NCBI GenBank assembly: GCA_002964805.2
Contig: PUDQ02000113.1
Location: 906,581-970,580 of the forward strand
Reading direction: 5' to 3'
DNA: 64,000 nt
DNA from: Trametes villosa
Taxonomy: Eukaryota; Basidiomycota; Agaricomycetes; Polyporales; Polyporaceae
The translations under genes and the position numbers were made by a program. A model generated the notes under the pieces. It searched no databases and was not told where the DNA came from. It saw only the letters and a list, made by a program, of their open reading frames with translations. Shown here piece after piece: positions 11,949 through 45,860 of the stretch; within the stretch, counting starts at the first letter, position 1, and the number at the start of each line of letters is the position of its first letter.

Positions 11949-12590
11949 TCAAATAATGGCAGCATTATACGGCGGAGGGGCGCTGCTCTCAGAGAGTAAC
12001 CGCGAGTACTACCCCGTTATCTCCCCCAGGTACTCTCTCGAAGCGACCTTGCGTGGTAGGGTACTTCGCGGCGAGGGCGTCCAGCACGTGTGGCACGCTG
12101 CAGAACGCGGCCCCGGATATGACGGTGGCCATCTGGGGTCGTATAGCCGCCGTTGCGCGTGCGTAAGCCCCATCGAAATATCTATGGCCTCGCGAGTTGG
12201 GGATGATAGTCCGTCGGAGGGGTAGCTGCGCGTCATCGAAGTAGTGGAGAGGCGATTGCCTGGGGCCTCGATAACTTGGCGACCATCTTCTGCGCTCGTG
12301 GGCGCGCTGTCCGCTGGACACGTCGAGTCAGTAACGCGCCATAAAATTCAGAGAAGCCGCCTACATTCAACCTCGCACAGACGTCGAACAAGCACACGCT
12401 TTCGCATGAGGGAGATGCCCAACGCAGCGAGGAGTGTTAGCGTGAGCGCTGCACCAACTACCCCACCGACGATGGCACCGGTGTTCCGAGGACGAGGAGC
12501 CGCGGGGATTGAGTCTGAGGTGGGTATCGATGCGATGGGCGACGCGACGCCCGAGGGTACATGCGAACGACCTGTCGACTCTAAGAGCAA
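11949..12590 (-). pseudogene. relic of the PPxY-tail membrane family (copy A)
   Basis: A single transmembrane segment is clear at ~12470-12390 (GAIVGGVVGAALTLTLLAAL, then Met-Arg-Lys-Arg). The tail frame ends SAPPPYNAAII at 11949, matching the (P/L)PxY ends of the other copies. In that same frame a TAG stop follows GEITG about twelve codons before the end. No N-terminal domain with the DDxDPRI motif can be read upstream. I call it a decayed member; a very divergent functional copy with an unusual splice cannot be excluded. Confidence 0.6.
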
Positions 12591-13312
12591 TGCCCTCAGA
12601 TCCGAACGCGATCAACTTCTCTGCCACAGCCTACCTGCAGTATCTATCAGGCGGAAGCTATATGAAAGCACCTATCTTTCGGATTTGCTGACGAAGCGAA
12701 CCCTGCTTCGGGGGTGTACTACCAGTCATTGCGCCCGGTGGGATCGCTCGAGAGCACTGGCGCCGCCATCGTCACTAGCATCTGAACTTAAGAGCAGGGC
12801 CCGACATAGTTTTGGAAAAATATTCAGGAGGGCTCCATTCATAGCGGGCGATCTCTGGAGAGCCTTCCGCGAGGAGCTCGAGACGGTTGTCGAACACGTC
12901 CAGCGTCGAGTTGATCACTTCGACAGTTGAGAGGAAAACGCCGCTTGAGTGAGAGCTACGGCGGAGAGTCAGGGGAAGAATGGGTTATAGCCTCTAGAGT
13001 CGAGCAAAGTATACGACGAAAGCAGGAGACGGAGCGCGGCGGTCGGGGAAAAAGTGCAGGTCGTTGTGGTGTCGAAGTAGCTCATTTAAGCGCTCAAAAT
13101 GCGCATAGCCCTTGCCTGAGAAGGTGCCTCGTAACGTCAACCTCGCGGCTCTGTACTTCGCCAACTTCCCCGGGATCTCCACTCTGATTTGCTATGTTTT
13201 GGCTTGTGCTGCAACAATTCACTAGTATCAAGGTCTTTGCGCCATACAATATGACCCCATGCGCCCAAGTGAACGAGGTGAGTCTGGGATAAGTAGGTAC
13301 TAAGTATCCTGG
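12591..13312. other. intergenic or decayed family sequence
   Basis: The stretch upstream of copy A is where its ectodomain should be. One minus-strand frame near 12930-12780 is open (NSTLDVFDNRLELLAEG) but does not match the family ectodomain. Confidence 0.3.
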
Positions 13313-14818
13313 CTAGTTCGGAGCGTCGCTGCTGTAGGGCGGTGGCATGCTTCCCTCCGCATGAGCTGTCGCAGCATCCGACCATGCTCGGGAATTCATC
13401 CTCCTTAGGAACCCACTCGCAAGAAACCCTCGCGACGAAGGCGTCTGCGACGGACTCCGGGACCCCGCAGATCGCTGGGCTCCGAGCGGATCGGCGAGAT
13501 TGTCGGTGGTCTGGAGATGTCGGGGGCGGGAACGCTCCGGAAAGAGGGGAGGGGGTGACATGTCGCCTGAATCGCAGGCCGAAGCGAATGTTCTCATGGA
13601 CGGTGCTCTACCCGAGCGACTTGTAGAGCCATCACCCTCGGAGGGGGTCAGTAGCGAGCGCCTGGCTGTACGGCATGGCAAACATAAGTACGTACACCAG
13701 TGTCAGAGGTGTTGGTAATACATACCGTCGGCATGCAGCTGACGCCGTGAAAGAGTGTGCTTCAGCAAGTAGTAGTTGCCCAGGGTCGCCAGGAGCACCA
13801 CCGCAAACGCCGCGCCAACGGCCACGCCTATGGTGGCCCCATTGACCTGTCCAGTAGGCGTCGATGTTGCACACGAGGCGCCCAGCGACGCCAGAGGCTT
13901 CATTGCCTCGGATGGACAGGGAGTCGTTCCGGACGCGCAGGATTGCGATGATATCCTTGAGGCGAAGAGTTGTACGTTTAGTCGAGAGGCCCGAGCGTGC
14001 CTATGGAGTTGAAAGCCGAGAACTCACTGAGAAGATTCTCCCGTATTTGTCTCTGTAGGATCCGAAGGGATGTACTGTACCCGCCAGACGTTAAGCGATG
14101 TCCCCTGTCCCGGGGGCCTCGTCGCCTCGCCTATATGGGCGCTTGTCCCCATGTCCCCGGCCACTCATCGCCTACCCTCCTCCTTCCCAATTCGGTAATT
14201 TTTCAAGGCGATGGGCGCTTGCGGGCGCTTAGCCATCGCCAGGCCAATGATATCGCCTATGTCCCCCTGTCCCCGGCCACCCATCGCCTGGGTGCCCCCT
14301 TCCCACGCCCTAATCTAGGGTTACGTCGCTTCGCTTAACGTCTGGCGGGTACAGTACCAGATCGAGTCGAATAAGAACACGTTCGGCGGAGTCCCGTTCA
14401 TGTTGACGAGGGTTATCGTGTGTTCTCCTGGAAGGAGGACGGGAGATTGGAACAGCGACATGTTGTATAGGAACTCCAAGGGCGGATCTGCGAGGGACTC
14501 CTCTCGAAGTAAGTAGTTCCACCCGTCGACGATGAACGACACCGCAGGAAAGCCGTTGTAGCGCGTGTTTCCGGTGATTCCCCACACTCCAACTTGCGTG
14601 CCTATAGACAAGTAGTCTCAGTGCTGAAATACGCGGTGTTAGTGCCGGAGATATAGCTGACCTGTAAACGTGAAAGTTGCTGTCGATCCTGCATCGCGGC
14701 CCAGATGAAGCGAGTTATTGTATGCGTCGTTTTGGTACTTGTTGTCCCAATGCATCGAATACAGAATGCGTGGATCCTGGTCATCTACGAGAATGCGGGT
14801 TCCTGAATTAGAGCTCAT
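13313..14818 (-). pseudogene. PPxY-tail membrane protein, copy B, split by a MITE
   Basis: Exon 1 starts at 14818 and reads GTRILVDDQDPRILYS. Exon 2 carries GEHTITLVNMNGTPPN and FDSIWY. Directly after the Trp-Tyr codons the coding sequence is broken by the element at 14076-14353 and its target duplication; the frame then hits a stop after CTRQTLSEAT. If the element plus one GTAC is removed, the frame resumes as WYIPSDPTETNTGESS and leads on to the stalk. The transmembrane helix is GVAVGAAFAVVLLATLGNYY, followed by KHTLSRR. The tail ends SMPPPYSSDAPN at 13313. All else looks intact, so the insertion is probably recent. Confidence 0.8.
14076..14353. mobile_element. MITE (non-autonomous DNA transposon) with 23-bp perfect TIRs and GTAC target duplication
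   Basis: The element is 278 bp. Its ends, 14076-14098 and 14331-14353, are perfect 23-bp inverted repeats starting TGTACCCGCCAGACG. It is flanked by GTAC at 14072-14075 and 14354-14357. The interior has no open frame of note and contains repeated GGCGATG and TGTCCCC motifs. The target site is inside a conserved exon of the family gene, and excision of element plus one GTAC restores the conserved WYI reading. Superfamily is not assigned: the 4-bp duplication could also be read as 3 bp (TAC). Confidence 0.88.
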
Positions 14819-15973
14819 GGGATAGCAGTGTAGTAGCCGGGCAGCGGGGAGAGAGGCGGCGGGGGTCGCTGAGGACAACAGGGATTGTTGCAGTATATAT
14901 CCAGTTCACTCACCAGTCATATGCAGCCAGTCGCGTCGGATCATGGTGTTCAGCACATGGAACTGATCCATCCTGACAGCGATACTACTGACGACAAAGC
15001 TGTTAGCATCATCTTTGCGGCGTTACAGTTCAAAAGCATGTCAACTCACCTCGCCGAGGGCGTGATATCATCAACGCGGGTCGCGAGGGGGTTAGGTTAC
15101 GGACTCGGTGCGGGCCGCGCAACCGCGTTCGAGTGCATGGCGAGGGCACGGGGGGTGCAGCATACTTATGCCATTAATGCCGGGCGTAGCAGTCGGTGCA
15201 GCAGATATGAGTAGGCGCGTTCCCGGTAGAAGCTTTCTCTGTATCTTAAGCACCGACATCTAGTAGCTTAGAATGAGCACACGTCGCCACAGAACATTGC
15301 ACGCAGCCAGGAACATACCTCTCACGATGTACCTTTGACATCATGCCACAGCCTAAGATCGTGAAACTGCCACTGTTGTGCAGGCTGTCAGCGAACAGAG
15401 GCATCATATCGGCTCGGACACCTGATAAACTCCTGATCAAGACGATGCCCCGTGTTCTATCAGACAGGATACTCTAGCAGAGATGTTAGGAGGATTCGGC
15501 GGCGTGGACCGCGGGACATATCCATCCCACGGGAGTTTCCCCGCCGCACTTTCCCGGGCGTTCTCGACCATGGCATAGATAACGCAACATCAGCTCCGGA
15601 ATATATATTGTGCGCATGCGAGGTTGGGAACGTACGGTTATTGGGGAGTAGCTGCTACTATTTCAGTCACGGATAGACCTTAGGGAGAGGCATGTGGCTC
15701 GGTTACAGCAATGCATGGGTCACGGTCCTCGGATGGCATTGCGTGAACCTAATCATCCGCCTCTCGAGTGCTTCCTGCCGCCGAATTCGCACAATGGTAC
15801 CAAACTCGATCGTATAGTGACTAGGGTTCATATACCGTGACAGTGTAGTACCTTCGCGCGCGGAGGGATGTCTGTTAGCATGTCTGATTGACATGGGTCA
15901 GTGTCGTGATGCAGGAGTTGTGCGCAGCAATCTTGGTCGACGAACCTTGCATCGGAAGGGTGAGCGAGTGCCG
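14819..15973. other. intergenic between copies B and C
   Basis: No gene is supported. A TATA-like ATATATAC on the minus strand near 14891-14898 sits about 75 bases upstream of copy B. Confidence 0.4.
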
Positions 15974-17290
15974 CTACCGGGTATATGGTGGTGGAGCATC
16001 GGACTGGTGCATAGATAGAGGTCTGTTGTGAAGAAGACGAGGGCGGTCGCTCGGTGCCACGGCGGCGCCGAGGCGGTCCAGCGAGGTATGCGATGTATAC
16101 GGCGGGACGGTAAGCAACGAGGATATTTGGGATATCCGCGAATGCGTAGTCGGAGGTGCTGTATTAGACAGTTGAGTTCTGGGCGGGGATTTGACATCAG
16201 AGGGGAACTGTTGTGCGGTTCCGGAGATCGTTGTGTTGCGCGACCGTGAGAGGGCGGCTGCTCCTTCCATCGCCCTCGTGGAAGGCATGACGGGAGTTGA
16301 CGTTGCAATGACGCTGCGTATCGACGGTCGCAGATCTTCATGCCCTCCTCGAGATGGGAGAGTGGTCCATGTTGGGCCGCCCTCTGTATTTCGAGCTGTA
16401 GCGCGTAAGGACGTAGTCAGTTCCAAGATTGCTAGACTGAATAGACAGCTCTGATACGTACGGATGCTGAGGGCCCCCGGCTGTTCCAGAGCGGCTCTGC
16501 GCCTGGACAGATAGCAGACGGCTAGTAATGTAACAAGAAGCAGAGCGGCGACTGCTCCTCCCACCGCCCCGCCTATGGTCGCCGCAGCGTGCGACGGCCG
16601 GCTCGTCGGGGAGCTCCCGCTACTTGCGATCGTGTCACTGGAAGTCGTAGGTGCTGGAGTTGTGATCGAGGTTGGAGGCGTCATGGACGAAGCCGTGCGA
16701 GATGAGCCCGTCGTTGACAGCACGCCGGAGCTGCATCAATGTCGGTTATAATCCGATATATGTTCGAGAGGGCGAGATACCAACCTGGAGGACTTCGCAG
16801 GGAGCGACGTTGGCACGCTAAGGTCGTCTGCGGCGATGTACCAAAAGCGGTCCAGCCACAGCGTGTTCGGCGCAGTCGCGTCGAGATTCGTGACCACAAG
16901 AGTATGCTCGCCGGGAGAGAGCGAGGGCGACGAGAAGAAGGCGAAGTTGCACAGGAGCGATTCCGGGATTACGTCCGGGGTGACGCGAACTTCGTAGTTC
17001 TCGCCGTCTACAACATACGACGCAGAGGGGGAACCCCACTGGACGACGTCCCCGTCGCACCCAACGACGCCGACCATCGTTCCTGCATGGAGCTATGTCA
17101 GTTGCGAAGTGCGATGAAGCGGAAGGACGACGGCACCTGTGAACTTTAGGGTGGCGGAAAGACCTTGGCCCTTTGCGGAGTGCGCAGTCCCGTTGAACGC
17201 ATCGGCGACTTGTCCGGTACCCCAGCCGCTCGAGTAGCGGATGCGCGGGTCTCCATCGTCCAGGTAGATACGATCTCCCACGGAGTCCAT
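15974..17290 (-). CDS. PPxY-tail membrane protein, copy C
   Basis: The start at 17290 gives MDSVGDRIYLDDGDPRIRYS with no signal peptide. The first intron follows ATLKFTG, as in all members. The second exon has MVGVVGCDGDVVQWGSP and SPGEHTLVVTNLDATAPN, then FWYIAADD. A Ser/Thr/Pro-rich stalk (SSMTPPTSITTPAPTTSS) leads to the transmembrane helix around 16600-16510 (AALLLVTLLAVCYL) and the stop-transfer SRRRAALE. The C-terminal tail is Ser/Thr/Pro-rich and ends DAPPPYTR. By the positive-inside rule the N-terminal domain should face out and the tail the cytosol. The ectodomain is probably a beta-sandwich, possibly sugar-binding; this is inference. Function unknown. Confidence 0.8.
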
Positions 17291-17910: not shown

Positions 17911-19090
17911 TTAGGTCCTATCCCTCCCGATATACGGCGGGAGAGGATCTTCGTCCATGTCGCGCAAGCGAGCGTTGTCGCGCGTTGGGACGTCAGAGTG
18001 GGCCGAGGGGATGTACGACGCTTTCGAGAATGAGTCCGCCGAAGGGGTCGTCCAAGGCGTATACGTCGCATGCGTCGGCGAGAACGAGGATGTGCGGCGG
18101 GACTGTTGCAGGCACGTGAGCCCGGATTCCAACGTCGGCGCGGGTAGGTCGTCTGCCCCGCGTGCTTGATGTGCGGGTACCGCTCCGTCGACGGCTATGG
18201 TAGAACTTCGCTGATGAGGGGCGGCTCCTGCTGGGACAAGCTGAGGTCTATGTCCCATCACGGTGGGCGTATATGTTCTCGAGTCGCTGTCTTTCGCGCG
18301 TATGACACAAGATCAGTTCACAACAACATAGGATGGTACTTGAATCGCGTACCGATGCTCCGTGCGCTTCGGTGCGACCTACGCCTGATGAAGCAGAAGA
18401 GGGCGAGGCTCGCCAGGAGCAGTACCACTGCCCCGCCCACGGCACCGCCTATGATGGCGCTGTTGTTATGGCCGCCGCTCGTCGCGGGTGCCGGACTAGG
18501 AGCGGAAGACGGGAGGGCGGTATTCGACCTGCGAAGTGCTAGTGAAGCTCTCACGTCGCTGCGACATGAACGACTGTGACTCACGAAGCCGACTGGCTGC
18601 CGCTCGAGCTGGGTTCTGCGACATCCGCTGCGATGTACCAGAATCGATCGAACACGAGCAGGTTCGGCGAAGTTGCGTTCAGATTCGTCATCACGACCGT
18701 GTGTTCTCCGGGAGCGAGGGTCGGTGAGGTGAAGCGCGTGACGTTGTAGATGGTCGGTCCTGGGCGTGCGGGTACAGGAATGACGTTGGCGTTGTAGTTT
18801 GTCCCGTCGATGAGGACCGAGATTGACGGGACCCCCAGCTCGGCTACGTCGCCTGCGCATCCCATGATTCCGACCATCGTACCTGTAGCAGTATGTAGTG
18901 AACGCTAGGCTAGCGGACACCCGGGGGAAGACGGACCATTGAAAGTCAGTGAGGCTGTAGAACCTTCCTGTAGGGCGTAGTGCAGGGTACGATCGAAGGC
19001 TTTCGGTGACACGACCTGACTCCAGTTGTCCGAGTAGACGATTCGGGAGTCACTGTCGTCGACATCGACGCGAGTACCTGATGAGGCCAT
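17911..19090 (-). CDS. PPxY-tail membrane protein, copy D
   Basis: The start at 19090 gives MASSGTRVDVDDSDSRIVYS. After a first intron with GTCCGT donor and TACAG acceptor, exon 2 reads MVGIMGCAGDVAELGVP, then APGEHTVVMTNLNATSPN and FDRFWYIAAD. A second intron joins to a stalk (LPSSAPSPAPATSGG) and the transmembrane helix VVLLLASLALFCFI followed by RRRSHR. The tail exon ends DEDPLPPYIGRDRT at 17911, so the terminal motif is LPPY, a weaker (L/P)PxY form, placed six residues from the end. All splice junctions examined keep frame. It has the GC(A/D/G)GD Cys signature of the minus-strand subgroup. Confidence 0.8.
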
Positions 19091-20683
19091 GATATGCGAT
19101 TGTTGGACGGAGAACTGAGTCGCGGGCGGAAGATCGTGAATGAGAGACCGCGGAGTGGTGGAGGCACAACACCTTATGTGCCGTCCGGGCGACGCAGCAG
19201 GCCCCATCTGTCACGTACGAGCTTCTTATTTCCGCCACGAGCGGATGCTGTGTACCCCGAAAGGAGAGCCCTTCTGCGAGACGTCGGTTAGCAATGCTGA
19301 TGGCGTGGAAACGAATGACACTTATGACCTCTCTCACTCGGACGTCCGGTAGTCCTGGGGAACGCGAGAAGCAAAGATGTGCCGGTTTTTGTTCGACCTA
19401 TCGAATGCCTGCTACGCAGGCAGCCGGGAGGAGATGAGACTCGAAACTGATGTTGAAGAGTCGTGCTGAAGAGCCGTAAGTGTCCTTTGCTATCAGCGAA
19501 CGTTTTCCTTCCCTCGTCCCGTTTGCACGCATCAAGTAGTTGTAAGGTGAGTAGTAGGAGGTAAACGATGCATGCTTGACGGTAGGATGTCTGAGCGGTG
19601 TTGCCTTCTCTCGTCCTCGGCATGAAGAGAGCGGCAGCACGGCCGGCAGACAATGCTGGCTGCGAAATCTAATCAGACACGTCGCACCTGATTGTACATC
19701 TTCAATTCTCAACGCACTATGATGATGACCTGTCGCGCACAACAGCGTTGCACAGAGCTACGGAAGTCAACTTGAACGTGATGGAAGAGCGGATGCAATG
19801 AGAGTACTCACCGGCTTACAGCGGACTCTCGTCCGCAATGTGGCCCAGCTCGGAGACATACCAGGTCAATCGTTTTCTGGTAATTTTCTCACTGCGACCA
19901 TATCCTTAAGTCACGTAGTAGCTTGCATAAAGGACCAACGTGCAACGGACGGTGGTAGGAACCACAGACAGGCGCCCAGTGTTTGCGCAATGGCGTCGGA
20001 AACGTTAACGATCCCGATCAGATCTGGCCTTCCTCCTTTCTCCTCACTCGAACCGATGCTACTCGTTCAAAATGCCGATACACACGGGGAGTGGACCGGA
20101 ATTGAGCCAATGAGGAACATCATGCAGCTGCGGCGCCGAGTCTGTGGCAGGGGCTACCGAGAACTTCGCGGGCGCGGTGAGAGAGCTAGACAGAGCTTCT
20201 TTGGTCGCCGGGGAGCAACATAACAAGCACGATCGCTCCCGCGCAACTCACAAGGACGCGAAGACTGCATAACTGAGAGAGGCGCGTGGGGGCAGAGGGC
20301 GTCCCAGACGACTGGAGAGACGCCAGAGGAGCGACGCCGCGAATTCGGTGACCTGCTAAGGTTTGTGTGTAATACAACACTAGTAGCCGCCTCAAAGGCC
20401 TGCTCGTCGAGGGAACCTCGGCGGACGGAACGTGACATGGAAGCGAAGATAGAGGAGATGCCAAGCCATATCATGGAGATGTCGGACCTGTGTAAGATGG
20501 CAGTTGCAGAATCAGACGCAGCGCGACCGCAGCCGCGAGCATCGGACAGGGTGTGAGGAGGATGTGCGCTGTCAGGTCACTCATGTCCGACGATAGATAA
20601 TCGGACAGCGCGCTGGCGAAAGAGATATGAGCGTAGGAAGTGCTAGAAGATGGCAGCCTCGTACTCGTCTCCAAGTTGACGCA
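19091..20683. other. intergenic between copies D and E, 1.6 kb
   Basis: This is the longest gap within the minus-strand array. Two minus-strand frames (20674-20471 and 20474-20154) have hydrophobic stretches, such as MLAAAVALRLILQL, that could be exons of an unknown membrane protein, but I could not assemble a convincing gene. It may also hold a heavily decayed family member. Confidence 0.3.
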
Positions 20684-21871
20684 CTATCCGGGATATGGCG
20701 GGAGCGAGTCTGTGGCTCTCGTCGCGGGGAGGTGGCGGCATGACAGTCCGAGCGGACCGTCTTGGACTTGGTAACAATACAAGCGCTGGTTTCGTGGAGA
20801 TATTCGGTGAGGAGTTCGCAGGCAGATGTGGATGGGCAGGCGGTGGTGTGGAAAGCGGAGCGTGTTCTGGTAGATCTGCGGGTCCCGGAGCATACGAGGC
20901 GAGGGGAGGCGGGTTATTTCCCAGTGCTTGCATTGAAGGTACCAGCCCTTCCGAGTCGTTGTTACGCGCAGCGTCTATGGCAGATACGTGACTAGACGCG
21001 GCCGCTACCGGGGTGAACCATGGCAGAAGGTGCGTCGACGACGCTTGGGCCATGCCGGGGTCCATAAAGGCCGCTGTGCCATGCAAGTATGGTCAGTTGT
21101 GCTCTACATGCAACGTTTACGAGCGTACCAATTTCCTGCTTCGGCGATCTCTTCCCCCGCCTGCGCTTCATGAGCCAGCAGGCGACAACCGTTGCAAGCA
21201 TCACGGCAGCTGCCCCGCCCACTGCGCCGCCTACGATAGCCCCGGTGTTCTTCGAAGGCGCGGAGTTGTAGGAGGTTGGAGGCGCTGTGTTTGTCCTGTG
21301 GTTCTAGTCAAGCTCGCCACTCGCAACGCGGATTCCGATGGTACTACGTACCCTGAAGGTTGCATAGATGACTGGCTCGCACTCGTGGTGTCTGAAGCGA
21401 CATACCAGAAGCGGTCAAGCACCAGCATATTCGGGTGCGTCCCGTTCAGGTTGGTCAGCACGATGGTGTGCTCCCCTGGCGCGAGTGTTGGCGACGCGAA
21501 GAGCATGAGATTGTACTGGAGAGAAGCGTTCGGGGGTGCGACCTCGGACAGGTCGTTCAGGAAGATGTTCTCGTTCTGGCCGTCGATGACCACGGACATT
21601 GAGGGCGACCCAAACTCAGCAGCATCCCCTCCGCATCCCGTGACGCCGACCGCCGTACCTACAAGAAAGGGTTCAGAGGGCGCTGGGTAACGTTTCTAAA
21701 TATAATCCGGGACATACCGGTGAATGTCAACGTGGCTGTGAGTCCAGCTCGTGCGGCGGAATGCAAAGTGCGATCGTATGCGTTGTCGGATAGAGCGGTG
21801 CCCCAGCCTGCGGAGTACTGGATGCGCGGATCCGCGTCGTCGATATCGACCCGGGGACTCGGCAAACTCAT
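20684..21871 (-). CDS. PPxY-tail membrane protein, copy E
   Basis: The start at 21871 (MSLPSPRVDIDDADPRIQYS) fits the family better than the in-frame Met twelve codons upstream. Exon 2 reads VGVTGCGGDAAEFGSP, APGEHTIVLTNLNGTHPN and LDRFWYVASD. The third exon carries the stalk and the transmembrane helix AAAVMLATVVACWLM with KRRRGKR behind it. The tail frame ends DSLPPYPG at 20684, giving LPPY as the terminal motif. An alternative tail frame ending at 20643 is open but lacks the motif, so the tail splice is the least certain part. Confidence 0.75.
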
Positions 21872-23006: not shown

Positions 23007-24421
23007 TCAATCCGGTGTGTATGGCGGAGGCAGCGTCCCAATTACACTCTCATCCCGAGGTAAGCGGAATCCAGAGTCGACTTCTTGCTCTGGAGGTGGC
23101 GGAGCTGAATACCTCAAGCGTTGTGCTAGCGTGCGGACGTGCGACTTCGCCCGGGCAGGTCGAGATGCTTCCGGAGGTGAGGTCGTGGTTTCGGCTTGTA
23201 TAGGGGGCGCCGCGGCGTTCGACCCGCCTCCAGAGTGTGGCAGCGAAGCACTCGCGCTCTCGGGGACGGTGCTGGCTTGGCCACAAGCAACCGATTCCTT
23301 CTGAACGCTTGACAATGACGCGGTAGGTGCCTGATGGAACAGAGAGTATGGCCTCTCTACCATCGGGCCGGCCATAACATTGGCCGCCGTTACTCCTGCA
23401 AGGACAATCGGTGAGCATGGAATCATCTGATCTGCGTCGCGCATACCTCACCTTCGGTCGTATCCCAGTTCTCCTTCCGACGACGTGAGCGACGGAACGC
23501 CAGGATGCCCACAATCAGCGCGACAACTACAGCGCCTGCCACGGCACCGCCGATGATAGCGCCCGTGTGGTTCGTGGTGGCCGCGGAGCGGGGAGTCCCC
23601 GAGTCGGACCCGGACTGGCTGGGTGTGGGGACGCTACTGATAGAACCAGAGCCTGGGGTATTCGTAGCGTCATTGGTTGAACTAGAGCCCGGGGGATTCG
23701 TTGCGGCCGCCGTTGAGCTGCCTCCGGTTGTGATGGACCCTGGGGACGTCGAAAGAGATTCCGGTGCCGACGACGACGCACGCCCTTGGGAGACAGAGCC
23801 AGGGAGCGGGGTCGTGCCTGAGGGGGAAGAACGTGATACCGAACCGGAGGCGGAGCTCGCGGACGGGGATCCTGAGGGCGTAGTGAGCGATACTGAGGCG
23901 GACCCGGGGCTCCCGGGAGGACTAGTGCCGGCGTTATCGAGGGGCTTGTAGAAGATGTAGTCGAACCAGAAGGTGTTCGGCGCGGTCCCATTCAGGTTTG
24001 TGATCGTGAGGAGGTGCTCGCCGGGCGTGACGGGCGAGTCGAAAAAGGTGACGTTCGTGAAAAGGGTGGTGGCCGAGATGCCTGGGGGGAAGGTGTTCGT
24101 GTATTGCTGTACTCCGTCGATTGAAAAGTCTACCGCTGGCCAGCCGTAGACGTCCGTCATGCCCGTCGTGCCAATGACGCCGACTTCCGAACCTGACATA
24201 GACTGTTTGAGAAAGCGATGTATACGAGAGGCGATTGTGTACTTACCGGTGAACTTCAGAGTCGCCGTGATACCCTGAAAGGTAGCCCCATGCAGCGTAC
24301 CGTCAAACACGCCCGACTGACTCGAGGGCCCGTCCTCCTTGGACGCTGTCCAGTCCCCGCCGGAGTATACGATGCTCGGATCGGTGTCGTCGACGTACAC
24401 CCAGCCGCCGTTCGTCGTCAT
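23007..24421 (-). CDS. PPxY-tail membrane protein, copy F, long stalk
   Basis: The start at 24421 gives MTTNGGWVYVDDTDPSIVYS. The frame also stays open upstream to 24757, but that extension adds no signal peptide and crosses a TATA box, so it is not used. After the first intron the protein reads EVGVIGTTGMTDVYGWP and TPGEHLLTITNLNGTAPN, then FWFDYIFY. The stalk is the longest in the family, over 120 residues of Ser/Thr/Pro/Gly, likely O-glycosylated. The transmembrane helix is AVAGAVVVALIVGILAF with RRSRRRKE behind it. The tail ends EVDSGFRL, a gap, then TLPPPYTPD at 23007. The EVDSGFRL block links it to the plus-strand subgroup (DVDSGLRL), although its strand and position belong to the other block. 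Confidence 0.82.
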
Positions 24422-32232: not shown

Positions 32233-33791
32233 ATGTCGTCTACCGTTACCACACTCACCATCGACGATGCCGACCCCCGGGTTCAGTACCAACCAGGGTG
32301 GACTTCGAACCCTGATGGATTGACGACCCCAGGGGTGAACGGGACGCGCCACACGGTGTCGACGGAGGGTGTTACGGCGTCGTTGACTTTGAGGTGTACG
32401 TCCCCTCTAAGTTTCATTCCCTACGTACCCGAGATACTGATGCAGCTCGTGTGATTACAGGCACGAGTTTTCAAGTCATCGGCACTCTCGGGGAAACGCA
32501 GACATATGGTCAACCCCAGACGACGTTTTCTATCGACGGGAACGTGATCAGGACGGTTCCAACGTTCTTTATCGCGCCGGGGCATACCATGAACAACGTC
32601 ATCATATTCACCTCGGCCGATCTGCCTTTGGGCGACCACGAGTTGCTCATCACAAAGGCGGATGAGGGGTCGCCCTCCAGCCCTAGCACCTTCATACTAG
32701 ATTTCTTCATAATCCGCATCGCTTCCGAGTCCAGCGCACCGTCACCGCCTCTCTCAACGTCAATTATACCTCCCACAACCCAAAATCCACCACGCTCTTC
32801 CAACTCTATTGCTCACCCCTCTTTCTCATCGGCGCTCAACATAATCGCTTCTCCCTTGTCGGAGTCTTCTCCCCCAAAATCTCCTTCCTTGGTATCTTTG
32901 GCTTTCTCTACCTCGACGTCTTCTTACTCAAGTTCCTTCACTACACCCCTCCCACCCTCGGTGACCTCCATGGCCCTCCTTCTCACCTCCGCAGCTCCCT
33001 CCGTTGAAAGCGACACGCCAGGCAGCCCTCTGACTCAGAGTACTGCCACATCAACAACAACCGATGATCCTACAAGTAGTCCCATTGCTGCTTCATCTTC
33101 GACGCATATCGCCCGTTCATCCGTCCTCGAGATCGCAGCCGCTGCCTTGAGCTGCGCTGCCGTACTCGCTGCCGTGGCTGTACTCCTTCTTTGTGTAAGG
33201 CGTCGACGCCGACGCCGCCACGGAACAGGTGCGTGTGTGTTCTGGATCTCCGCCACTACGTCTACTAAGGCTCATCGTCGCTGGATACCTGCAGCCGTCT
33301 TCGACAGCCGAAGGGAGCGATTGACAACACATGCTCGCTCTTTCCCGAACGATAACATACCGCCGTCCTCCGAAGTTCGCTACTCCAGGTTGTTCACAGC
33401 GGATAGTGCGTCACTCGCCGCCGAACGGCCGACCTCCCATATCGTGCCACCGCCGACCTCGACGTGCCAGACACTCAGCACAGGAGATTTTGCGAAGCCG
33501 ACTACCGAGCCGGCGCCCGGCAGAGACGACGGTACCTCAACTACGCGAAGTCGAGTTCGCCGGCCCCTCCCTGCTCCGTCTGTATCGGCTCCCTCTACTA
33601 TCGAGGACGGGCTCGCCCTCGGCTGGCAGCAGGTCATACAGCCTTCCGCAACGCAGTCGCGTCCGCAATCGGGCACTTCGCTTCACTTCGGGCGCGCGGC
33701 GGGGGCGCCTCCGAGAGTGGCCCAGGACGTCGACTCGGGGCTGAGGATACATGATGATGCCGTGCCGCCGCCGCCTTATACGCTGCACTAG
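32233..33791 (+). CDS. PPxY-tail membrane protein, copy H
   Basis: The start at 32233 gives MSSTVTTLTIDDADPRVQYQ, no signal peptide. The first intron follows ASLTLR and ends TTACAG at 32460. Exon 2 reads SFQVIGTLGETQTYGQPQ, then LPLGDHELLITKADEG and TFILDFFI, the plus-strand variant of the ectodomain end. The stalk is long, Ser/Thr/Pro-rich. The transmembrane helix is LSCAAVLAAVAVLLLCV followed by a run of Arg (VRRRRRRRH). A second intron begins GTGCGT at about 33229 and ends at 33298. The tail ends DVDSGLRIHDDAVPPPPYTLH at 33791. It is the tandem sister of copy I. Confidence 0.83.
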
Positions 33792-34109: not shown

Positions 34110-36840
34110 ACTTGTTCTGCTAGGCTCGACTACTCCCTCGGGCGGAATATATCGCCATGCCACACCTATGGTTCACTTACCAGCGCCTGCAGCACCTGGA
34201 TCTCGACTTTGTTTGCTCCTCGCCTTGTAGCCCGAACCTCTCTGCGCAGCCCAGTACAGCTTGTGGTTCGTGCCCGGGGCGAGCGCGCGCCCGACGCTTC
34301 TTCCGCGCTCAAGAGCGCATATGGCGTGGCCGCCGCCGCCCCGCAGGATCCGGTGGCGATCTGGCCGCAAGATCTGGGGCAGCGGCGTTTACAAGGAGGC
34401 GCGCTACGTTTAACGCTTACTAGCCTCACAACGGTCGTCTCTGAAGGCTGCCGGCGCGTGATAGCGGGCAAGTCCTCGACTGCCGTGTCTACGTTGCATA
34501 TTGGCGTTAACGATGCCGGAGCCACGGGTGCGTACCCGCATGTAGCTTCAGCGTGTTTCCGAGCTCATAGCATCTTTATCCGCATTCGCTTGCCATCTGT
34601 CCGCAGAGACAGGTGCTGGACGTCCAACACGTCGAACATTGTTAGGCCGCCACCTCACCGGTGATGTCTCCTCACGCCGCGCACCTCATCACCTTACAAC
34701 AACGCATGAGACACTGACCATACACTGCGATGATACTTCCATGATCGTAAGCTCGCCAGGGCCGCGCACGTTTGATTCTACGCCGCATCTGCTCATATAC
34801 CGTCACTCATACCTTTGCTTGACAGCTTCGACGCCCGAGAAGATGGGCACAGGCAGGCCATCTACACCCCGTCTCTGCATCACATCGCACTGCGTCGGCA
34901 TACAAATACTCCCTTGACGTCTAGATACGACGCCGAGCCCCGTACTCCACCCGAGCAACACAAGCGACGCTGGCGGACCTCTAGCTGTGTCGAACTCGCG
35001 GATGTCGTCTACTGCTTCCCCCATCCTGGTCGACGACACCGACCATCGCGTCCAATATCATGCGGGGTGGAAATGGGTCCCCAAAGGATCTGGACTACTG
35101 GAGGTTGACGGGACGCGACATACAGTATCGGCGGTGGGTATTACGGCGTCGTTGACCTTCAGATGTACGCCCGCTCTTGCTTTTTCTGTCGATGCTCGCG
35201 TCATCCTGACATGCAGCCGGGGGTACAGGTACGGGCTTCCAAGTCGTCGGTACCCTGGGAGAGTCAGCGACGTACGGCCAACCCCGGACGACGTACTCTA
35301 TCGACGGAGCCCAGGTGGATTCGTTCCAAGCACCCTTCGTTGCGCAGGGGGACACCCAGTACAATGTGACTTTCTTCACGTCGCCGGAGTACCCTTTGGA
35401 CGACCACGAGGTCCTCATCACCATGGAGGGCGGGGCCGCCCCGGGTCTTAACACCTTTATACTGGATTACTTCCTAGTCAACACCGCCTCGGGCGGGTCC
35501 TCACTACCCCCTACAACACCGGACCTACCTCCCGCGGCTCCCGATCCCCCACGTTCCTCAAGCTCTACTACTTCAAGCTCTTCCTTCTCACCGGCGGCGG
35601 CCATTATCACGACTTCCTTTCCGACGTCGTCTTCCTTAATACCTCCTTCGGTGTCATCTTCGGTGACATCGTCCTCGACGGCTTCGTCCTCGACGTCTTC
35701 TTTCTCGACGTCTCCATCTTCGTTATCCTCCCCCTCGAGCTCGCGCTCTGCATTCTCTATACCCTCATTGGACTCCGCATCCTTCTTGACCCGCTCCACC
35801 TTCGCCTCCTCTGCGCCGTCCGCGGTGCCCTCCGCCGCAGATCCCACAAGTAGTGCTATCATCGCCGCTCCTCCTTCAGCACATTCACCCCATCTTTCCG
35901 TCCTCGAGATAGTAGCCGCTGCCTTGGGCAGCGCTGCCGTCCTCGCTGTCACGGCTATTATCCTCCGATGCGTAACACATCGGCGCCGACGTCGTGCCAC
36001 CATCGGTGAGTGTTGGCTCTGTGCGCTCGCGGCAGCGACTTGGACTCATCGTCCTCGGATCACTGCAGCCGTGGTTAACAAGTCCAAAGAGGACTTGGTT
36101 CAAACACGCTCTCGCTCTCTCTTGGACGATACCACGCCCCCGCCTTCCGCTCGCTACTCCACGTCGTCTTCGGCGATCGCGTCACTCTGCGCTGAGTGGT
36201 CGACCTCCCAGATTATGCCGTCCCATCCCTCGCAACCCCGCCCGCTCAACGTCGGAGATGCGGCGAAGTCAAACCGCGATTCCCCGCGCAGAGTCAGCCG
36301 CCCGGACGCTGTTCCTTCGGCAACGAGCACAGGAGCCGAAAACCACACACTGCGAAGCAGGCGAACTCTCTCTGCCCCGTCGGTATCGGGCTCTTCTCTC
36401 GACATCACTGCGGGGACCGAGTTCGGCCTCGGCTCGCAGCACGGCGCGCAGGCGTCTACCACGCAATCCCGCCCGCATTCGAGTTCTTCGCTATACGCTG
36501 GTCGCGCGGCAGGTGCGCCTCCGAGGGTGGTACAGGACGTGGACTCGGGGGTGAGGATCCGCGGCGATGTCGTGCTGCCTCCGCCTTACACACTACATTA
36601 GCGCGCTGTCGGCTGCGGGTGCTCTATCCCTCGCACGTGCAACGGGCATGAGCGAAGATGTTTTCCTCTCGTCTCGTTTGCAATGTGACGCCGGTATCGA
36701 ACATGGCCGCTGAGGCTGACATACCCTTGAAGTTCTGTCATTAGCGCTATCCCTATCCTCCTTTCTCTTAATACATATCTGACTTTCGCGATCACTCTCC
36801 TATGTCTGCTTTCTAGGTAGGCCTACTTCAAGGCTAGCAT
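34110..36840 (+). repeat. tandem duplication unit 2 (contains copy I)
   Basis: This is the second unit, collinear with 30750-34040 but ~0.5 kb shorter; most of the difference lies upstream of the gene. Clear identity remains in the noncoding flanks, so the duplication is not ancient. The 961 bases between copies H and I that are not 3' flank belong to this unit and contain no supported gene. Confidence 0.72.
35002..36601 (+). CDS. PPxY-tail membrane protein, copy I
   Basis: The start at 35002 gives MSSTASPILVDDTDHRVQYH. Introns are 35165-35228 and 36005-36068. Exon 2 reads GFQVVGTLGESATYGQPR, YPLDDHEVLITMEGG and TFILDYFLV. The stalk has about 130 Ser/Thr/Pro residues, including a run of Ser-Thr-Ser coded by TCG/TCC/TCT repeats. 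The transmembrane helix is GSAAVLAVTAIILRCV, with THRRRRR behind it. The tail ends DVDSGVRIRGDVVLPPPYTLH at 36601. Extracellular N-terminus and cytosolic tail are inferred from the Arg cluster. Confidence 0.84.
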
Positions 36841-37787: not shown

Positions 37788-39293
37788 ATGTCTTCAACCA
37801 CGGTCGCGAGCGAGTTGGTGGACGACAGCGACCCGCGCGTGCAGTACCAGCCTGGCTGGATATGGGACCAGGGCGTCGCAGAGCTAGATGCGACCCGGCA
37901 CGGGGCGAGCACCGCAGGACTGAGGGCGTGGCTGACCTTCACTGGTAAGTGTCCCCGGTGTCTGTTGCGCTCGGCGAGAGCTGAATGGGAACCACATGCT
38001 GTGCAGGTACCGGCGTCCGTGTCATTGGGACACTCGGATCTTCCGATACGTTCGGCCAGCCGAAGACGACGTACCTGGTCGACGGCAAGGTCGCGGGCAC
38101 GTACAGCGCCCCGCTCACGCCGTCTGGGGAGACACAGTACAACGTGACGTTCTTCTCTGCGCGGAACCTCTCCCCGGGGAGCCACATCGTGCTCATCAAC
38201 AACACGGACGGGACCGCGCCCAACACGTTCTGGCTGGACTACTTCCTCGTCGATCCTATACCGGGCTCGAGTGCCAGTTCTGGTGCTCCCTCCCCGACAC
38301 TTGTTTCGGATCCGGTGGCTTCTGATTCAACTGCTGGGCTCTCGTCCGGGATTACGTCGACGCCGAGCGTGTCTGCGCCCGCGGGTGTTGCGCAGACCTC
38401 TGCGCCGAGCAACAATGTGGGCTCCGGATCCTCGTCCGCATCGCATTCGAATGCGGGGGTGATCGCCGGAGCTACTGTAGGCGGCGTTGCGGGTCTGGCT
38501 ATCCTAGCACTCCTGTTCTTCTTCCTAAGGCGCCGTCGCCGCCCGGACACAACGGAAGGTGCGTAGCTTTGTCGTGGCACATATACATCTCTTTCGGGCC
38601 TTCTCTGACTTTCCTGCAGCAGGCACAGTTGCGCCCTTCGCCTACTCCCAGGACCCGTTCGTGTCCCGCGAACTCCCTCCAAGCTCACACCAACCTTCTA
38701 TGCGGTATTCCTCAAATGCCGGAGCGCCCCTTTCCACTGGCTCTGCCGGCCACTTCAGCCACAGGCCGGCGACTGCGCCGCCATCCGAAATCGCGCCGGA
38801 GAGCGTCGTAAGCCAGTCCGAGTCTTACACTCCCTCCGCGTCTTCCGGGTCTGCTCTGCTCGCCCCTGTAAGACGCCCCGCTTCCCCTCCCTCCCCCTCC
38901 GGTCTCTCCCCCGCGCCGCATCGCCCTCCCCCGATTTTGGAGAAGAGCACCACATCTATCGCTCCCACTACGCCCTCGCTTGGATACACGACCACACCCG
39001 GCACGGGTCCCGAGTCCTCGTACTCGTCGAGCGCACCGCAGACACCCGCGTCGCCCGCATTCTCATCCGCGAGCGCCACGTCGCCGCTCGTGGCCCCCGC
39101 TGCGCTCCCTCCTGGGGCGTGGCACGCGCCCCCGGACTCGCATGGGCGCGCACATACGTTGCTGCGTTCGCTGTTCTCGCGAGGGTCGCGCGCGGTCCCG
39201 GATGGGAGCGCGGCGGCGGCGCCGAGGGATGTGGACTCGGGGTTGCGGTTGTATGATGAGGTCGTGCTGCCGCCGCCGTACACGCAGGAGTGA
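37788..39293 (+). CDS. PPxY-tail membrane protein, copy J
   Basis: The start at 37788 gives MSSTTVASELVDDSDPRVQY. Introns are 37945-38006 and 38559-38622, both phase 1, at the positions used throughout the family. Exon 2 reads GVRVIGTLGSSDTFGQPK, SPGSHIVLINNTDGTAPN and FWLDYFLVDP. The stalk is followed by the transmembrane helix VGGVAGLAILALLFFFL and the stop RRRRRPD. The tail of about 220 residues is Ser/Pro-rich, has the block PPGAWHAPPDSHGRAHTLLR shared with copy K, and ends DVDSGLRLYDEVVLPPPYTQE. Confidence 0.86.
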
Positions 39294-40556: not shown

Positions 40557-42393
40557 ATGGGGAGCACGCTGGTGGACGACACGAACCCGGACGTGCAGTA
40601 CCAGCCTGGGTGGATCTGGGAGCAGGGCGTCGCGGAGGTGGACGCGACGCGGCACGGCGCGGCTATCGCTGGCTTGCGCGCATGGCTGACTTTCTCTGGT
40701 GAGCACCGCCCTCCCTCACAAACCCACTTCTCCTTCTTGCGCTTGAACAGTAAAACTGAATGAAAGCGGGCGTATGTAGGAACGGGCGTGCGCGTAGTTG
40801 GCACCCTCGGCCCGTCCGACACGTACGGCCAGCCGCAGACGACGTACCTGCTCGACGGCGTCGCGGCAGGCACGTACAGCGCGCCGCACACACCATCAGG
40901 ACAGATCCAGTACAACGTCACGTTCTTCGAGGCGCGCGGGCTCGCGGACGGAAGGCACGTCGTGACCGTGGAGAACACGGACGGGACAGCGCCGAACACG
41001 TTTTGGCTGGATTTTATCGAGATCGACCCCGAGGGGAGTGTTACGCCCGTGGTTGGGGGCGGGGGAGGGGGAGGGGGGACGCAGACACAGGCGGTGACGG
41101 TGACGCAGACACAGACGAAGATCCAGACGCAGACGCAAGGACAGGGGCAGGGGCAGGGGACGACGCAGCCATCGGGGCCGGGGCAAAGCTCGAACTCGAG
41201 CCCGAGCCCGACGAAGACCGCTGGGCTCGCTCCGTCTAACGCGTCAAGCTCGGGCGCAAGGTTCGCACCCTCTGCCGCCTCAAGCCGGGTCGCAAGCTCG
41301 AAGCTGACCCGCACTGCCCCTACTAGCACGCCTGCGTCCTCTGGTTCGCACCCCCTGACGGCCGTCCCCAACGCGTCGATTGCGTCTTCTTCGGCGGCGA
41401 GCGGCGCGGGGAACTCGTCCGTCTCTGTGCAGTATGTCACCTCGGTCAATGGGGACGCGACGGTCGTGTCGACTATCAGCTTCACCTTCGCGGACGGCGC
41501 GCCCGCGCAGACGTCTGCTGCAGGCGCGAGCGTGAACGGGAACACGAGCACGAGCCCGAATGGCACTGGCACTGGCCAGGGTGCGGCCGCGGAACACGGG
41601 TCGCGGACAAACGTGGGCTTGATTGCTGGGGCTGTCGTCGCTGGTGTCGCTGTGCTGGCGGTTCTTGTGGTCCTGTTTTTGTGTTTGCGTCGGAGACGTC
41701 GTGCTGAGCTTGCCCGAGGTAAGTGATTCCTGAAGGGCCGCCCCCGGCTGATATCGCTCTAACCGCCTTTTCGCAGAAACTCCCGCTCCTTTTTCTTACT
41801 CCCGAAACCCACCCCAATCACGCGACCCGCCGCCCATGCGGCACGCCGGATACCCCAACAACACACTCGCTGCCGAACGACACTTCGACCCCGAATCTCC
41901 CAACTCCCCCTACTCAGAATACGCTCCCGAGAGCGCAGTGAGCCTCGCGGAGTCTTATACCCATTCCGCCGCGTCCGAGACGGGCCTTCTCACCGCCCAG
42001 CGACGCTCTTCGATACTTTCTCCCTCAAACTACCGCCCGCCGCCATCCTGGGAGAAGGGCCCGAGTGCGCCGTCACCGTCGAGCCCCGATACCCCCTCCC
42101 TGGGCTTCACGAACTCGCGCGGCCCGCCCTCTGAGTCGGTATATTCAACGGACCCGCCGCGGACGCCCGGGTCGCGGTCGAGCGGGACGGCGACGCTGGT
42201 CCCCCCTTCGGTCATCCCGCCTGGGGCGTGGCACGCGCCGCCGGACTCGCATGGACGCGCGCAGACGCTTTTGCGCTCGCTGTTCTCGCGCGGCTCGCGC
42301 GCGGGCTCTGTGGCATCGGTGCCGAGGGACGTGGACTCGGGGCTGCGGCTGTACGACGATGTGGTGCTGCCGCCGCCTTATACGCAAGACTAA
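40557..42393 (+). CDS. PPxY-tail membrane protein, copy K
   Basis: The start at 40557 gives MGSTLVDDTNPDVQYQPGW. Introns are 40699-40779 and 41719-41776. Exon 2 reads GVRVVGTLGPSDTYGQPQ and TVENTDGTAPNTFWLD. A stalk with a Gly run and a Thr-Gln repeat follows. The transmembrane helix is AVVAGVAVLAVLVVLFLCL with RRRRR behind it. The tail shares PPGAWHAPPDSHGRAQTLLR with copy J and ends DVDSGLRLYDDVVLPPPYTQD. J and K are close paralogs. The 3' half of this gene plus its downstream flank was copied to 45290-46040. Confidence 0.87.
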
Positions 42394-42910: not shown

Positions 42911-45103
42911 ATGCCGCGCTTCCTGAACACCTGGACAGGGCAGTTTGAGTGGCACAACGACCCGGCGAAGGTCCGGTACGCGATCCTGTCGCACGTCTGG
43001 AGGACACCCGAGGAGGGAGGCGAGCAGACTTTTGAGGAAGTCAAGAAGATCCAGACCGATTTGCGAAAACTTCGAGCTCGACTGAAGCGATTCCCGTCTC
43101 GAGTTATCGCTTGGCCCGCCGTATTGTACAACTCTCGCCGCACACCGCCGAACTCGAACGCTTACAGCGAGATATTCGCGGGCCCCTCTCCCCTCTCGGA
43201 CAAGATCAAAGGCCTTTGCAAGGTCGCGCGCGAGGCCGGCTTCGATCTGGTCTGGAACGACGCATGCTGCATCGACAAGTCGAGCAGCGCGGAGCTCTCG
43301 GAGGCAATCAACTCGATGTACGAGTGGTACCGGCTCTCTGACATGTGTTACGTGTACCTCGCGGACGTCCCCGATGGCGAGGACCCACGGCGTTCGTTTT
43401 CCTGTTTCCGGACGAGCAAGTGGCATTGGCGCGGGTGGACGTTGCAGGAGCTCGTGGCACCGGGACGCATCGAGTTCCTGACGAAGACATGGACCTTCAT
43501 AGGAACGAAGATGGGATTAGCCGATGATCTGGCTGACAGAACCGGGATCCACCTCGACATTCTCACCAGCAGAGCCCCTGTGGATTCGGCCAGCGTCGCC
43601 CAGAGGATCTCATGGGCTGCGCGGCGGCAGACGACACGCGTCGAGGACCAGGCATACTGCTTGATGGGTCTCTTCGGAGTCCACATGTCGCCCATCTACG
43701 GGGAGGGTGCGAACGCCTTCCTCCGTCTCCAAGAGGAGATCGTCAGGACCATCCCGGATCAAAGCATCTTCGCCTGGGGGGCAGAGTACGCTCCGATCAT
43801 ACACCCTCCGGAGGAGAGAAGGGCCTGGAGCTTCTGGGGCTACCGTCGCTGGGGCGGCACATCTGACCCTGGTTTGTTAGCGTCCTCTCCGTCAAGCTTC
43901 TTCTGTGCATCATCTTTCAGGCCAATACCACCCGCCGATTTCTCATCGCGGCTCCAGCTCAAAGGAATCGAGGACGTCCCGCCGTTGCACTGTATCTTCA
44001 CTCCCGAAGGTGTCCGCATGCGGCTAGTATGTCTCAACTTCACTGATATACCACGAGATATCCAGGCCATTCTACGGGGCATGCCACCTGAGCGTTTGGT
44101 CCTGCGTTGGTGTGAGCACTGCATGCGACGCGCCCCGGACAGACTCGCCCTACTACAGTGCGAGGACGACCACGGAAACCTCCCTGCCCTCCCTCTTCAT
44201 TCGCCCCTCGGCTCCGAAGCTGTCGGGATGATCGGGCGCGGTTCCCCCATCGGTGCCTTCGTGCGATGCGACCCCTGCACATGCGAATATCGATACGAAA
44301 CTCTTCACGCCATCCTCTTGTCTCGGGAGACGCTCGCGATAATTCTGGATTATGCTGGCACCAAACCGGAGGCGGCCGAGGTTACCATCCTGCATCACTA
44401 TCCAGACCCCCCGAGATCAAAGTCGCTACGGAACACCTCCCTACCCTGTCTTGGTCTCTGGCCCCGTTTCGGTCGTGGCGAGGACGGCCTGAACTTCGCC
44501 CTCGCACCGCGTATCATCAGAGACCTGCGTGCCCTCGGCTTTACGACCTCCCCGTTGCAGGTTACGCGCGACCGCTCCTGGACGCGGACCACCTTGGAGA
44601 CCACCCTGACACTTTTCGAGAAGGAGTCCCGGCGTTGTAACAACCAGTGTCTCCAGTCCATTCGGCTGCGGCTATCTCTCGACAAACTATCGACACCAAT
44701 GCCACTTGGCGACCATGGTGGCAGCGATACCAAGTTCTGCTTCTCTATCACCAATCTCCTCCACGCTCAGTCCCCCAAAACGCCCTCACCGCCAGGTGTA
44801 CCACGTGGCTCCACATCCACGGAAAGTATGATCAGTGCTATGAAAGAAGTGCCCTGCGCCGGTGGTGGCGAAAGGATAGAAGTACTTCCAACCGAGCATG
44901 TTGAATACGAAATTGTACTTGCCTCGGCCGACTTCCTCGTCCCTGCCTATCCAGAACTACCAGGCCAGATGCGACTACTGCGGATTTCTCTTGAACGCGC
45001 CCCTGACAGCCTGAAATCACCGCTTCAGCAGTCCTGGACGGTCTGGTTGGTGGTTGAGATGAGCGCCGCGCATGGGCAAGACGTTAGTTCCTCCGGAAGC
45101 TGA
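42911..45103 (+). CDS. HET-domain (heterokaryon incompatibility) protein
   Basis: One uninterrupted frame of 730 residues. The HET domain fills the first ~290 residues with its three conserved blocks: RYAILSHVWRT (block 1); VWNDACCIDKSSSAEL and YEWYRLSDMCYVYLADV (block 2); and WRGWTLQELVAPGRIEF (block 3). EDQAYCLMGLFGVHMSPIYG and FLRLQEEIVRTIPDQSIFAW follow, as in most basidiomycete HET proteins. The C-terminal ~430 residues have no recognised domain. HET domains, structurally TIR-like, execute cell death in fungal non-self recognition. It lies between copy K and a broken duplicate of copy K. Its partner and trigger are unknown. Confidence 0.9.
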   Translation: MPRFLNTWTGQFEWHNDPAKVRYAILSHVWRTPEEGGEQTFEEVKKIQTDLRKLRARLKRFPSRVIAWPAVLYNSRRTPPNSNAYSEIFAGPSPLSDKIKGLCKVAREAGFDLVWNDACCIDKSSSAELSEAINSMYEWYRLSDMCYVYLADVPDGEDPRRSFSCFRTSKWHWRGWTLQELVAPGRIEFLTKTWTFIGTKMGLADDLADRTGIHLDILTSRAPVDSASVAQRISWAARRQTTRVEDQAYCLMGLFGVHMSPIYGEGANAFLRLQEEIVRTIPDQSIFAWGAEYAPIIHPPEERRAWSFWGYRRWGGTSDPGLLASSPSSFFCASSFRPIPPADFSSRLQLKGIEDVPPLHCIFTPEGVRMRLVCLNFTDIPRDIQAILRGMPPERLVLRWCEHCMRRAPDRLALLQCEDDHGNLPALPLHSPLGSEAVGMIGRGSPIGAFVRCDPCTCEYRYETLHAILLSRETLAIILDYAGTKPEAAEVTILHHYPDPPRSKSLRNTSLPCLGLWPRFGRGEDGLNFALAPRIIRDLRALGFTTSPLQVTRDRSWTRTTLETTLTLFEKESRRCNNQCLQSIRLRLSLDKLSTPMPLGDHGGSDTKFCFSITNLLHAQSPKTPSPPGVPRGSTSTESMISAMKEVPCAGGGERIEVLPTEHVEYEIVLASADFLVPAYPELPGQMRLLRISLERAPDSLKSPLQQSWTVWLVVEMSAAHGQDVSSSGS

Positions 45104-45289
45104 TAGCGAGGATATATTTCTACTTCCCGCCCGCGATCTACCATCCAATGACTCGGTGAGTCTGTGCCTCGAACAAAGACCGAAAAACACTAACCCGTGC
45201 TCGCCAGTCTCGCCCCTCTTACAAGGTGTCATGAACTCTGTACCGCGCCGTCCTTCCCCTTAGTCCAGGCTCGCGATGGGAGGCCAAAG

Positions 45290-45860
45290 AAACCATCCCT
45301 CCTCTCGATGATTCCCGAGTCGAATCCGAACCACGCGCCTCGCCGCACAGCACGCTCGCTACAGCAAATCCCCACTTGCCCTACTCCGACACCGCGCCCG
45401 AGAGGGCCATAAGCCTCGCGCTGTCCCACCTAATCTGAACCACACAACGCCGCGGCATGACTTTGTCGACACTTTCCGCTTCAAGCTACTGCCTACCTGC
45501 ATCCTGGGAGAAGGGCGCGAGCGCATAGTCGCCGTCCGAGAGCCCCAATCGATAATCCCCCTGACTGGGGATCGCGACCTCACACAGCCCGCCCTCGGGT
45601 TTGGGACGTGCCGCGGACGGCGCCCGGATCGCGTTCGAGCGGTACGCCGACGCTGGTGCCGATGTCGACGATCCCTCATGGGGCGTGGCACGCGCCGCTG
45701 GACCCGCATGGGTGGGCGCAAACGCTTCTTCGCTCGCTGTTCTCTCGCGGCGCCGCGGCGGACGCGCGGGGTCTTTACTGGAGGCGCCGCGGGACGTGAA
45801 CTCTCCACGGCTGTATGACTCCGAGGTGTTGAGCCTCGCTCAGTGCCGCCGCCGTTAATA
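45290..45860 (+). pseudogene. relic of a PPxY-tail membrane protein tail (copy L)
   Basis: Fragments of the copy K tail are visible. NPHLPYSDTAPERAISLA corresponds to NSPYSEYAPESAVSLAES. WAQTLLRSLFSRG near 45710-45755 corresponds to RAQTLLRSLFSRG. The terminal region reads EVLSLAQCRRR in one frame, while GTGCCGCCGCCGTTA in another frame is the mutated LPPPY end. Frames change several times and no transmembrane or ectodomain part is present. Confidence 0.8.

Follow-up and report, generated by a model that had tools for sequence, protein, structure and literature searches.

A subtelomeric array of genes for predicted single-pass membrane proteins with PPxY-ended tails in Trametes villosa

The array and its position in the window

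The window, i.e. the whole 64 kb stretch of DNA that was analysed, is the final part of contig C110 (970,580 bases) in the 46.7 Mb genome of Trametes villosa, and harbours an array of related genes for predicted membrane proteins whose tails mostly end in a PPxY motif. Six-frame reading together with spliced models revealed an N-terminal ectodomain of the DDxDPRIxYS type at ten loci, six of them (G2-G7) on the minus and four (G8-G11) on the plus strand, flanked on either side by relics lacking the ectodomain: G1, with a transmembrane (TM) segment and a broken tail, and G12, a degenerate tail (Table 1). Ten family members and two decayed ones in two opposite-strand blocks had been proposed in the first-pass annotation of this DNA, and all of these features were recovered. 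Its wording of the members as near-complete was justified for eight genes (G3, G4 and G6-G11), for which open models were obtained once a stalk intron was allowed in G3 and G4, but not for G2, broken by an insertion, nor for G5, for which no full model was recovered. The apparent breaks in G3, G4 and G5 were due to this extra intron of approximately 50 bp. It should be added that the first-intron junction of G3 was placed by hand and that the model of G4 leaves several tail introns possible.

From window base 63821 onwards there are exact telomere repeats, at a distance of 18-52 kb from the array, in agreement with the subtelomeric site, within 52 kb, that had been claimed for it. Duplication and decay, equally part of that description, are documented by close copies, by the relics G1 and G12 and by the element inserted in G2. 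The latter, resembling a miniature inverted-repeat transposable element (MITE) of ca. 280 bp, interrupts G2 at the end of the ectodomain and is present at 17 further genomic sites, of which three are partial, with 75-99% identity; since copies on other contigs are up to 99% identical, it was probably recently active. A pair of repeats with 81% identity (30838-30946 and 34185-34291) is situated upstream of G8 and G9 and perhaps marks a tandem duplication unit. The family exceeds what chance would give, because members are also encountered at other loci of this genome and in other polypores; the named protein matches of the window genes come from polypores (Trametes, Cubamyces and others).

Table 1. 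Array genes, relics and embedded features, with positions in the window
Feature	Position	Strand	Description
G1, relic	11949..12482	-	TM at 12396-12482; broken tail ending PPPYNAAII; no ectodomain found
G2	13313..14818	-	Ectodomain, TM, tail end PPPYSSDAPN; broken by MITE-like insertion
MITE-like insertion in G2	14072..14357		Includes possible target-site bases; terminal inverted repeats of ~24-27 bp
G3	15974..17290	-	Open model; stalk intron; tail DAPPPYTR
G4	17911..19090	-	Open model; stalk intron; tail DPLPPYIGRDRT (LPxY variant); close copy is L009, contig C15
G5	20643..21871	-	Ectodomain and TM; stalk intron; no full model; open tail frame stops without PY, LPPYPG in a different frame (read by eye)
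G6	23007..24421	-	Open model, 434 aa; tail VDSGFR...LPPPYTPD; TATAAA 114 bp upstream of ATG
G7	25117..26388	-	Open model, 385 aa; tail LPPAYTPD; pairs with Trametes pubescens TRAPUB_13165
G8	32233..33791	+	Open model; tail DVDSGLR...PPPYTLH
G9	35002..36601	+	Open model; tail DVDSGVR...LPPPYTLH; close copy is L013, contig C1
G10	37788..39293	+	Open model; tail DVDSGLR...LPPPYTQE; relatives in other Trametes with 80-86% ectodomain identity
G11	40557..42393	+	Open model, 565 aa; tail DVDSGLR...LPPPYTQD
HET-domain gene (PF06985)	42911..45103	+	Inside the array, between G11 and relic G12
G12, relic	45235..45860	+	Degenerate tail only; duplicate of G11 tail region, 74% identity over 524 bp to G11 tail and 3' flank

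The family and the architecture of its proteins

Single-protein searches of the same genome matched 61 loci, which is a lower bound. Sixty of them were examined, 10 in the window and 50 elsewhere (C22:86912-87394 stands outside this set); they include some weak matches (E 0.01-0.05) and two loci with an in-frame stop in the domain. The family consists of two main branches, the DDxD branch of the array and a sister branch beginning with NRTIDDxxGDxxTG, whose clusters lie on contigs C22, C56, C10 and C83. The homology of the two was supported by comparing their profiles (probability 98.5%, E 3.7e-15, 124 columns), and Pfam named the ectodomain of neither branch in the eight sequences scanned. 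The same plan, including PPxY, recurs in the diverged sister branch. Its loci L014, L016, L031-L033 and L037-L041 mostly combine signal-peptide-like starts with a C-terminal PPxY, and several of its tails have a coiled-coil-like stretch ahead of the motif, as judged by eye.

For protein comparisons a set of 48 sequences was used, all of the array's branch, comprising 41 of 44 database proteins (without P0004, P0039 and P0040) and seven window models (G3 and G6-G11); G2, G4 and G5 are left out of it. After the ectodomain come a stalk rich in Ser and Thr, a single TM helix and a basic stop, and the tails are mostly disordered with few lysines. The claim of the first-pass annotation that the tail ends in a PY motif proved sound: PPxY with 2-3 residues after the tyrosine stands at the C-terminus in 43 of the 48 proteins. 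None of these 43 has a second PPxY, and 33 of them carry a DSGxR block ahead of the motif. When the last 150 residues of the same 43 proteins were shuffled, such an end appeared in 0.37 of them on average and in two at maximum; the shuffle and the DSGxR count thus refer to proteins chosen for the motif, and the unselected count is 43/48. At the level of the genome, a strict PPxY (no more than 20 codons from a stop and 350-2300 nt downstream of the ectodomain) was found on the sense strand at 46 of the 60 loci and on the antisense strand at two. Homologous tails also share a conserved PPGxWHAPPxxHxRAxxLLRxLFSR block, e.g. in P0005 (residues 396-425), with a short helix predicted at 411-419. Database protein P0044 (source lgn) apparently has two ectodomain-like repeats, then one TM and the tail DSGVR...LPPSYTPS, and is possibly two-headed.

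PPXY and LPXY are PY motifs for the WW domains of Rsp5, and several yeast membrane adaptors use them, according to PMC2810449. At one locus of the genome, C10:951635-953497, a HECT domain comes after three WW domains, all on one strand, which is the Rsp5 arrangement. A membrane span with a predicted cytosolic PPxY or LPxY and a WW-HECT ligase are found together in this genome.

The predicted orientation was assessed in 41 of the 48 proteins (seven were left out), to which the lysine counts given below also refer. In 39 of the 41, the segment after the TM is more positively charged than the one before it (means 3.85 and -0.02). Furthermore, ectodomains contain 108 N-glycosylation sequons, vs 51 in shuffles (maximum 69), and 22 of 26 sister-branch loci have a signal-peptide-like start. 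Because of these three features, a topology with the N-terminus outside and the C-terminus inside is likely, and the outward ectodomain of the first-pass annotation is upheld as surface or lumenal. The array's branch would reach it without a cleaved signal peptide: here the start codon stands directly ahead of the domain, and in 43 of 48 proteins no more than 12 residues are passed before the domain begins, the rest being models with extensions or a missing N-terminus. The highest N-terminal hydrophobicities among the 48 (1.19 and 1.11) belong to two gene models with long N-terminal extensions. TATA-like boxes lie 74-114 bp upstream of the ATG in five of the ten genes. A hidden upstream signal peptide was considered and discarded: eight of the ten genes have no in-frame upstream Met, while G4 and G6 have one or more.

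As regards the fold, a structural model is that of TRAPUB_10919 from T. pubescens, which is related to G10 and is not itself a window protein; it predicts an ectodomain with a beta-sandwich of the CBM35/CBM6 type (CBM, carbohydrate-binding module). At the sequence level, a family profile picks out one solved CBM-like module. A single-sequence fold of P0001 was useless (mean predicted local distance difference test score 43). Among the matches in a viral fold library there were many phage tail proteins. Weak profile similarity to the Flo11 adhesion domain was seen as well (E 0.0068 in one search and 0.12 in another). In the five proteins scanned, Pfam detected no signalling domain and no SPRY domain of the Ear1/Ssh4 subfamily, the predicted fold being CBM-like instead.

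Age of the array and constraint on the ectodomain

In the phylogenetic tree the minus block corresponds to clade A and the plus block to clade B (support 96/89, bootstrap not settled). Both clades include genes of other polypores and are therefore old, and a recent species-only expansion was rejected for clades A and B as such; G8 and G9 have no other-species sister in the tree. In T. pubescens, T. cinnabarina and T. coccinea the locus numbers of A and B members are adjacent or nearly so, or the members are found on same-sized contigs, which suggests that the cluster is conserved.

The ectodomains had been proposed to be hypervariable and, relative to the tails, open to a test for positive selection; both comparisons gave the opposite. 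In 14 hand-picked close pairs, from which five of the 48 proteins were excluded, conservation of the ectodomain exceeded that of the stalk in all 14 and that of the mid-tail in 13, with four ectodomain ends cut short by the boundary rule (Tmey_1007173, Tsan_1077927, Tcoc_1472668 and Pilj_1029453). The last 45 residues matched at least as well as the ectodomain in five of the 14 pairs, which counts against a flat reading of this comparison. The ratio of non-synonymous to synonymous substitution rates (dN/dS) in three paralog pairs ranged from 0.16 to 0.23 in the ectodomain and from 0.28 to 0.47 in the tail, and the single stalk compared separately gave 0.57; all are point estimates, with some dS values near 1. 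The contrast is weakened by the small gap in the pair G10/G11 (0.23 for the ectodomain vs 0.28) and by the pair G9/L013, where the TM segment equals the ectodomain at 0.16. Between T. versicolor FP-101664 SS1 and the VTO73 records, taken as a second strain of that species, ectodomain identity was 124/125 and 118/125 residues (94-99%) in the only two gene pairs; pairs of T. versicolor are visible only because the database was clustered at 90%, which biases them towards divergent ones. As far as these sequence comparisons go, the array is old and its ectodomains are constrained, being the best conserved of the large regions, with purifying selection in the pairs tested.

Possible roles

To our knowledge, little is established about the means by which wood-decay fungi perceive insoluble polysaccharides or their own cell wall. 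The reading we favour, to which we give an even chance, is that the array encodes glycan-binding single-pass receptors or sorting adaptors whose own surface life, or that of their cargo, is set by Rsp5-type ubiquitination. The proteins would span the membrane once, exposing the N-terminal domain on the outside and keeping the tail cytosolic, and the ectodomain would bind a polysaccharide or glycan of the substrate, of the fungus' own wall or of a glycoprotein cargo. PPxY would dock onto the WW domains of the Rsp5-type ligase encoded in the genome, and the ligase might then ubiquitinate either the receptor itself, at its 1-3 tail lysines, or a bound partner. Past the first 12 post-TM residues every one of the 41 tails has 1-3 lysines and never none, which would suit a controlled ubiquitin site; this argument is weak, since other window reading frames vary widely in lysine and the sequences are related. 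Glycan binding would thereby set surface residence, sorting or turnover, and the many paralogs would offer a repertoire of glycan specificities read out via one ligase. The predicted CBM35-like fold also fits the wall recognition that the first-pass annotation had put forward as a possibility. A more far-reaching proposal, tentative and on balance doubtful, is that polypores, perhaps mushrooms more widely, possess a kinase-free receptor class in which dozens of glycan-binding heads share one C-terminal PPxY and a single Rsp5-type ligase, so that external glycans would select the surface proteins for ubiquitination and removal; in the array's branch, the folded head would be moved across the membrane by means of the TM as a signal anchor.

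Several observations weigh against the favoured reading. Pfam gave no CBM match up to E 1 in the eight sequences scanned, and the fold matches also include proteins other than CBMs (gingipain adhesin domains, a Cry toxin and hinokiresinol synthase), so that sugar binding does not follow from the fold by itself. No signal peptide was seen in the array's branch, for which reason we infer the translocation itself; an outward ectodomain without a visible signal peptide is a puzzle of topology. The tail motif has its exceptions as well. A strict C-terminal PPxY is missing at 14 of the 60 loci, only some of which are explained: G4 and L009 end in LPPY and one region is incomplete; in L022, counted as a PPxY locus, the motif is in a frame other than that of the likely tail (LPAY). 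The five of 48 proteins without a C-terminal PPxY are three short gene models (202, 254 and 260 aa), one marked partial and Earliella scabrosa 862827 (444 aa), which is an exception, and the window genes G4 (LPPY), G5 (no PY) and G2 stand outside the count of 43/48.

The same features could be read differently. Lumenal lectin-type sorting adaptors of the Golgi and endosomes, comparable to Ear1, Ssh4 and Bsd2 of yeast, would read cargo glycans with the CBM-like domain and recruit the Rsp5-type ligase onto the cargo with the PPxY tail; we regard this as unlikely. The near-constant PPxY end would suit such a role, and Lys-poor tails (1.68 lysines per 100 tail residues in clade A and 0.78 in clade B) would befit an adaptor more than a substrate. 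Against this stand the long Ser/Thr stalk and the large family, generally commoner in wall and surface proteins, and the Lys/(Lys+Arg) ratio, which is equally variable in five other open reading frames of the window (0.07-0.36). Given the same variability, and with a recurrent EK-type lysine in only 15 of 29 clade-B tails, lysine depletion was dropped as proof of adaptor function. Bsd2, Ear1 and Ssh4 are membrane proteins transiting the Golgi and endosomes (PMC2810449).

At a similarly low level of likelihood we place wall-to-membrane tethers or adhesins, in which the CBM-like head would hold the plasma membrane onto wall or substrate, with PPxY serving routine turnover only. Fold, stalk and the lack of a signalling domain by Pfam in five proteins would agree with that, as would the Flo11-like profile similarity, but a PPxY fixed in 43/48 together with DSGxR in 33/43 seems beyond the needs of routine turnover. 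The hypervariable non-self recognition locus of the first-pass annotation appears highly improbable. A subtelomeric array with relics, a transposon insertion and an embedded HET-domain gene would be in keeping with it; the ectodomains, however, are conserved in close pairs at the low dN/dS given above, the clades are old and common to other polypores, and the genome has at least 150 HET matches. The HET-domain gene was therefore set aside as a sign of such a locus and is probably a neighbour by chance, which leaves the non-self claim without positive evidence.

Among known systems, the WSC/Mid2 wall-stress sensors are likewise single-pass, with a Ser/Thr-rich stalk, a basic stop and a cytosolic tail, but the array proteins differ in having no WSC or Mid2 match by Pfam in five proteins scanned, no signal peptide seen and a PPxY tail. 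In Neurospora, CWR-2 is a membrane protein. The CWR-1/CWR-2 system resembles the array in that a polysaccharide-active protein serves recognition in a fungus, but differs in its six haplogroups in populations (both from PMC9550227), as opposed to the conserved ectodomains in the array pairs compared. The yeast Rsp5 adaptors (Bsd2, Tre1/2, Ear1, Ssh4 and possibly Rcr1/2) are membrane proteins with PPXY or LPXY (PMC2810449), whereas the array's family is set apart by its CBM-like domain, by its dozens of paralogs and by the constant place of PPxY close to the C-terminus. The CBM35, CBM6 and CBM36 modules among the matches listed are parts of enzymes or isolated modules, unlike the array ectodomains, which are joined to a membrane anchor and a PY tail. 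Fold and motif are thus known, but their combination, its scale and the missing signal peptide were not found described in the literature searched; that search, which reached few subscription papers, found no description of the family. Polypore proteins named 'hypothetical' in databases gain a predicted fold and architecture, and the family's size, CBM-like head and constant ligase-docking end yield a concrete hypothesis on surface sensors or sorting receptors that is simple to test.

Finally, a Plavaka-type transposase (PF18759) was noted at window positions 62162-63724 on the minus strand, near the telomere repeats.
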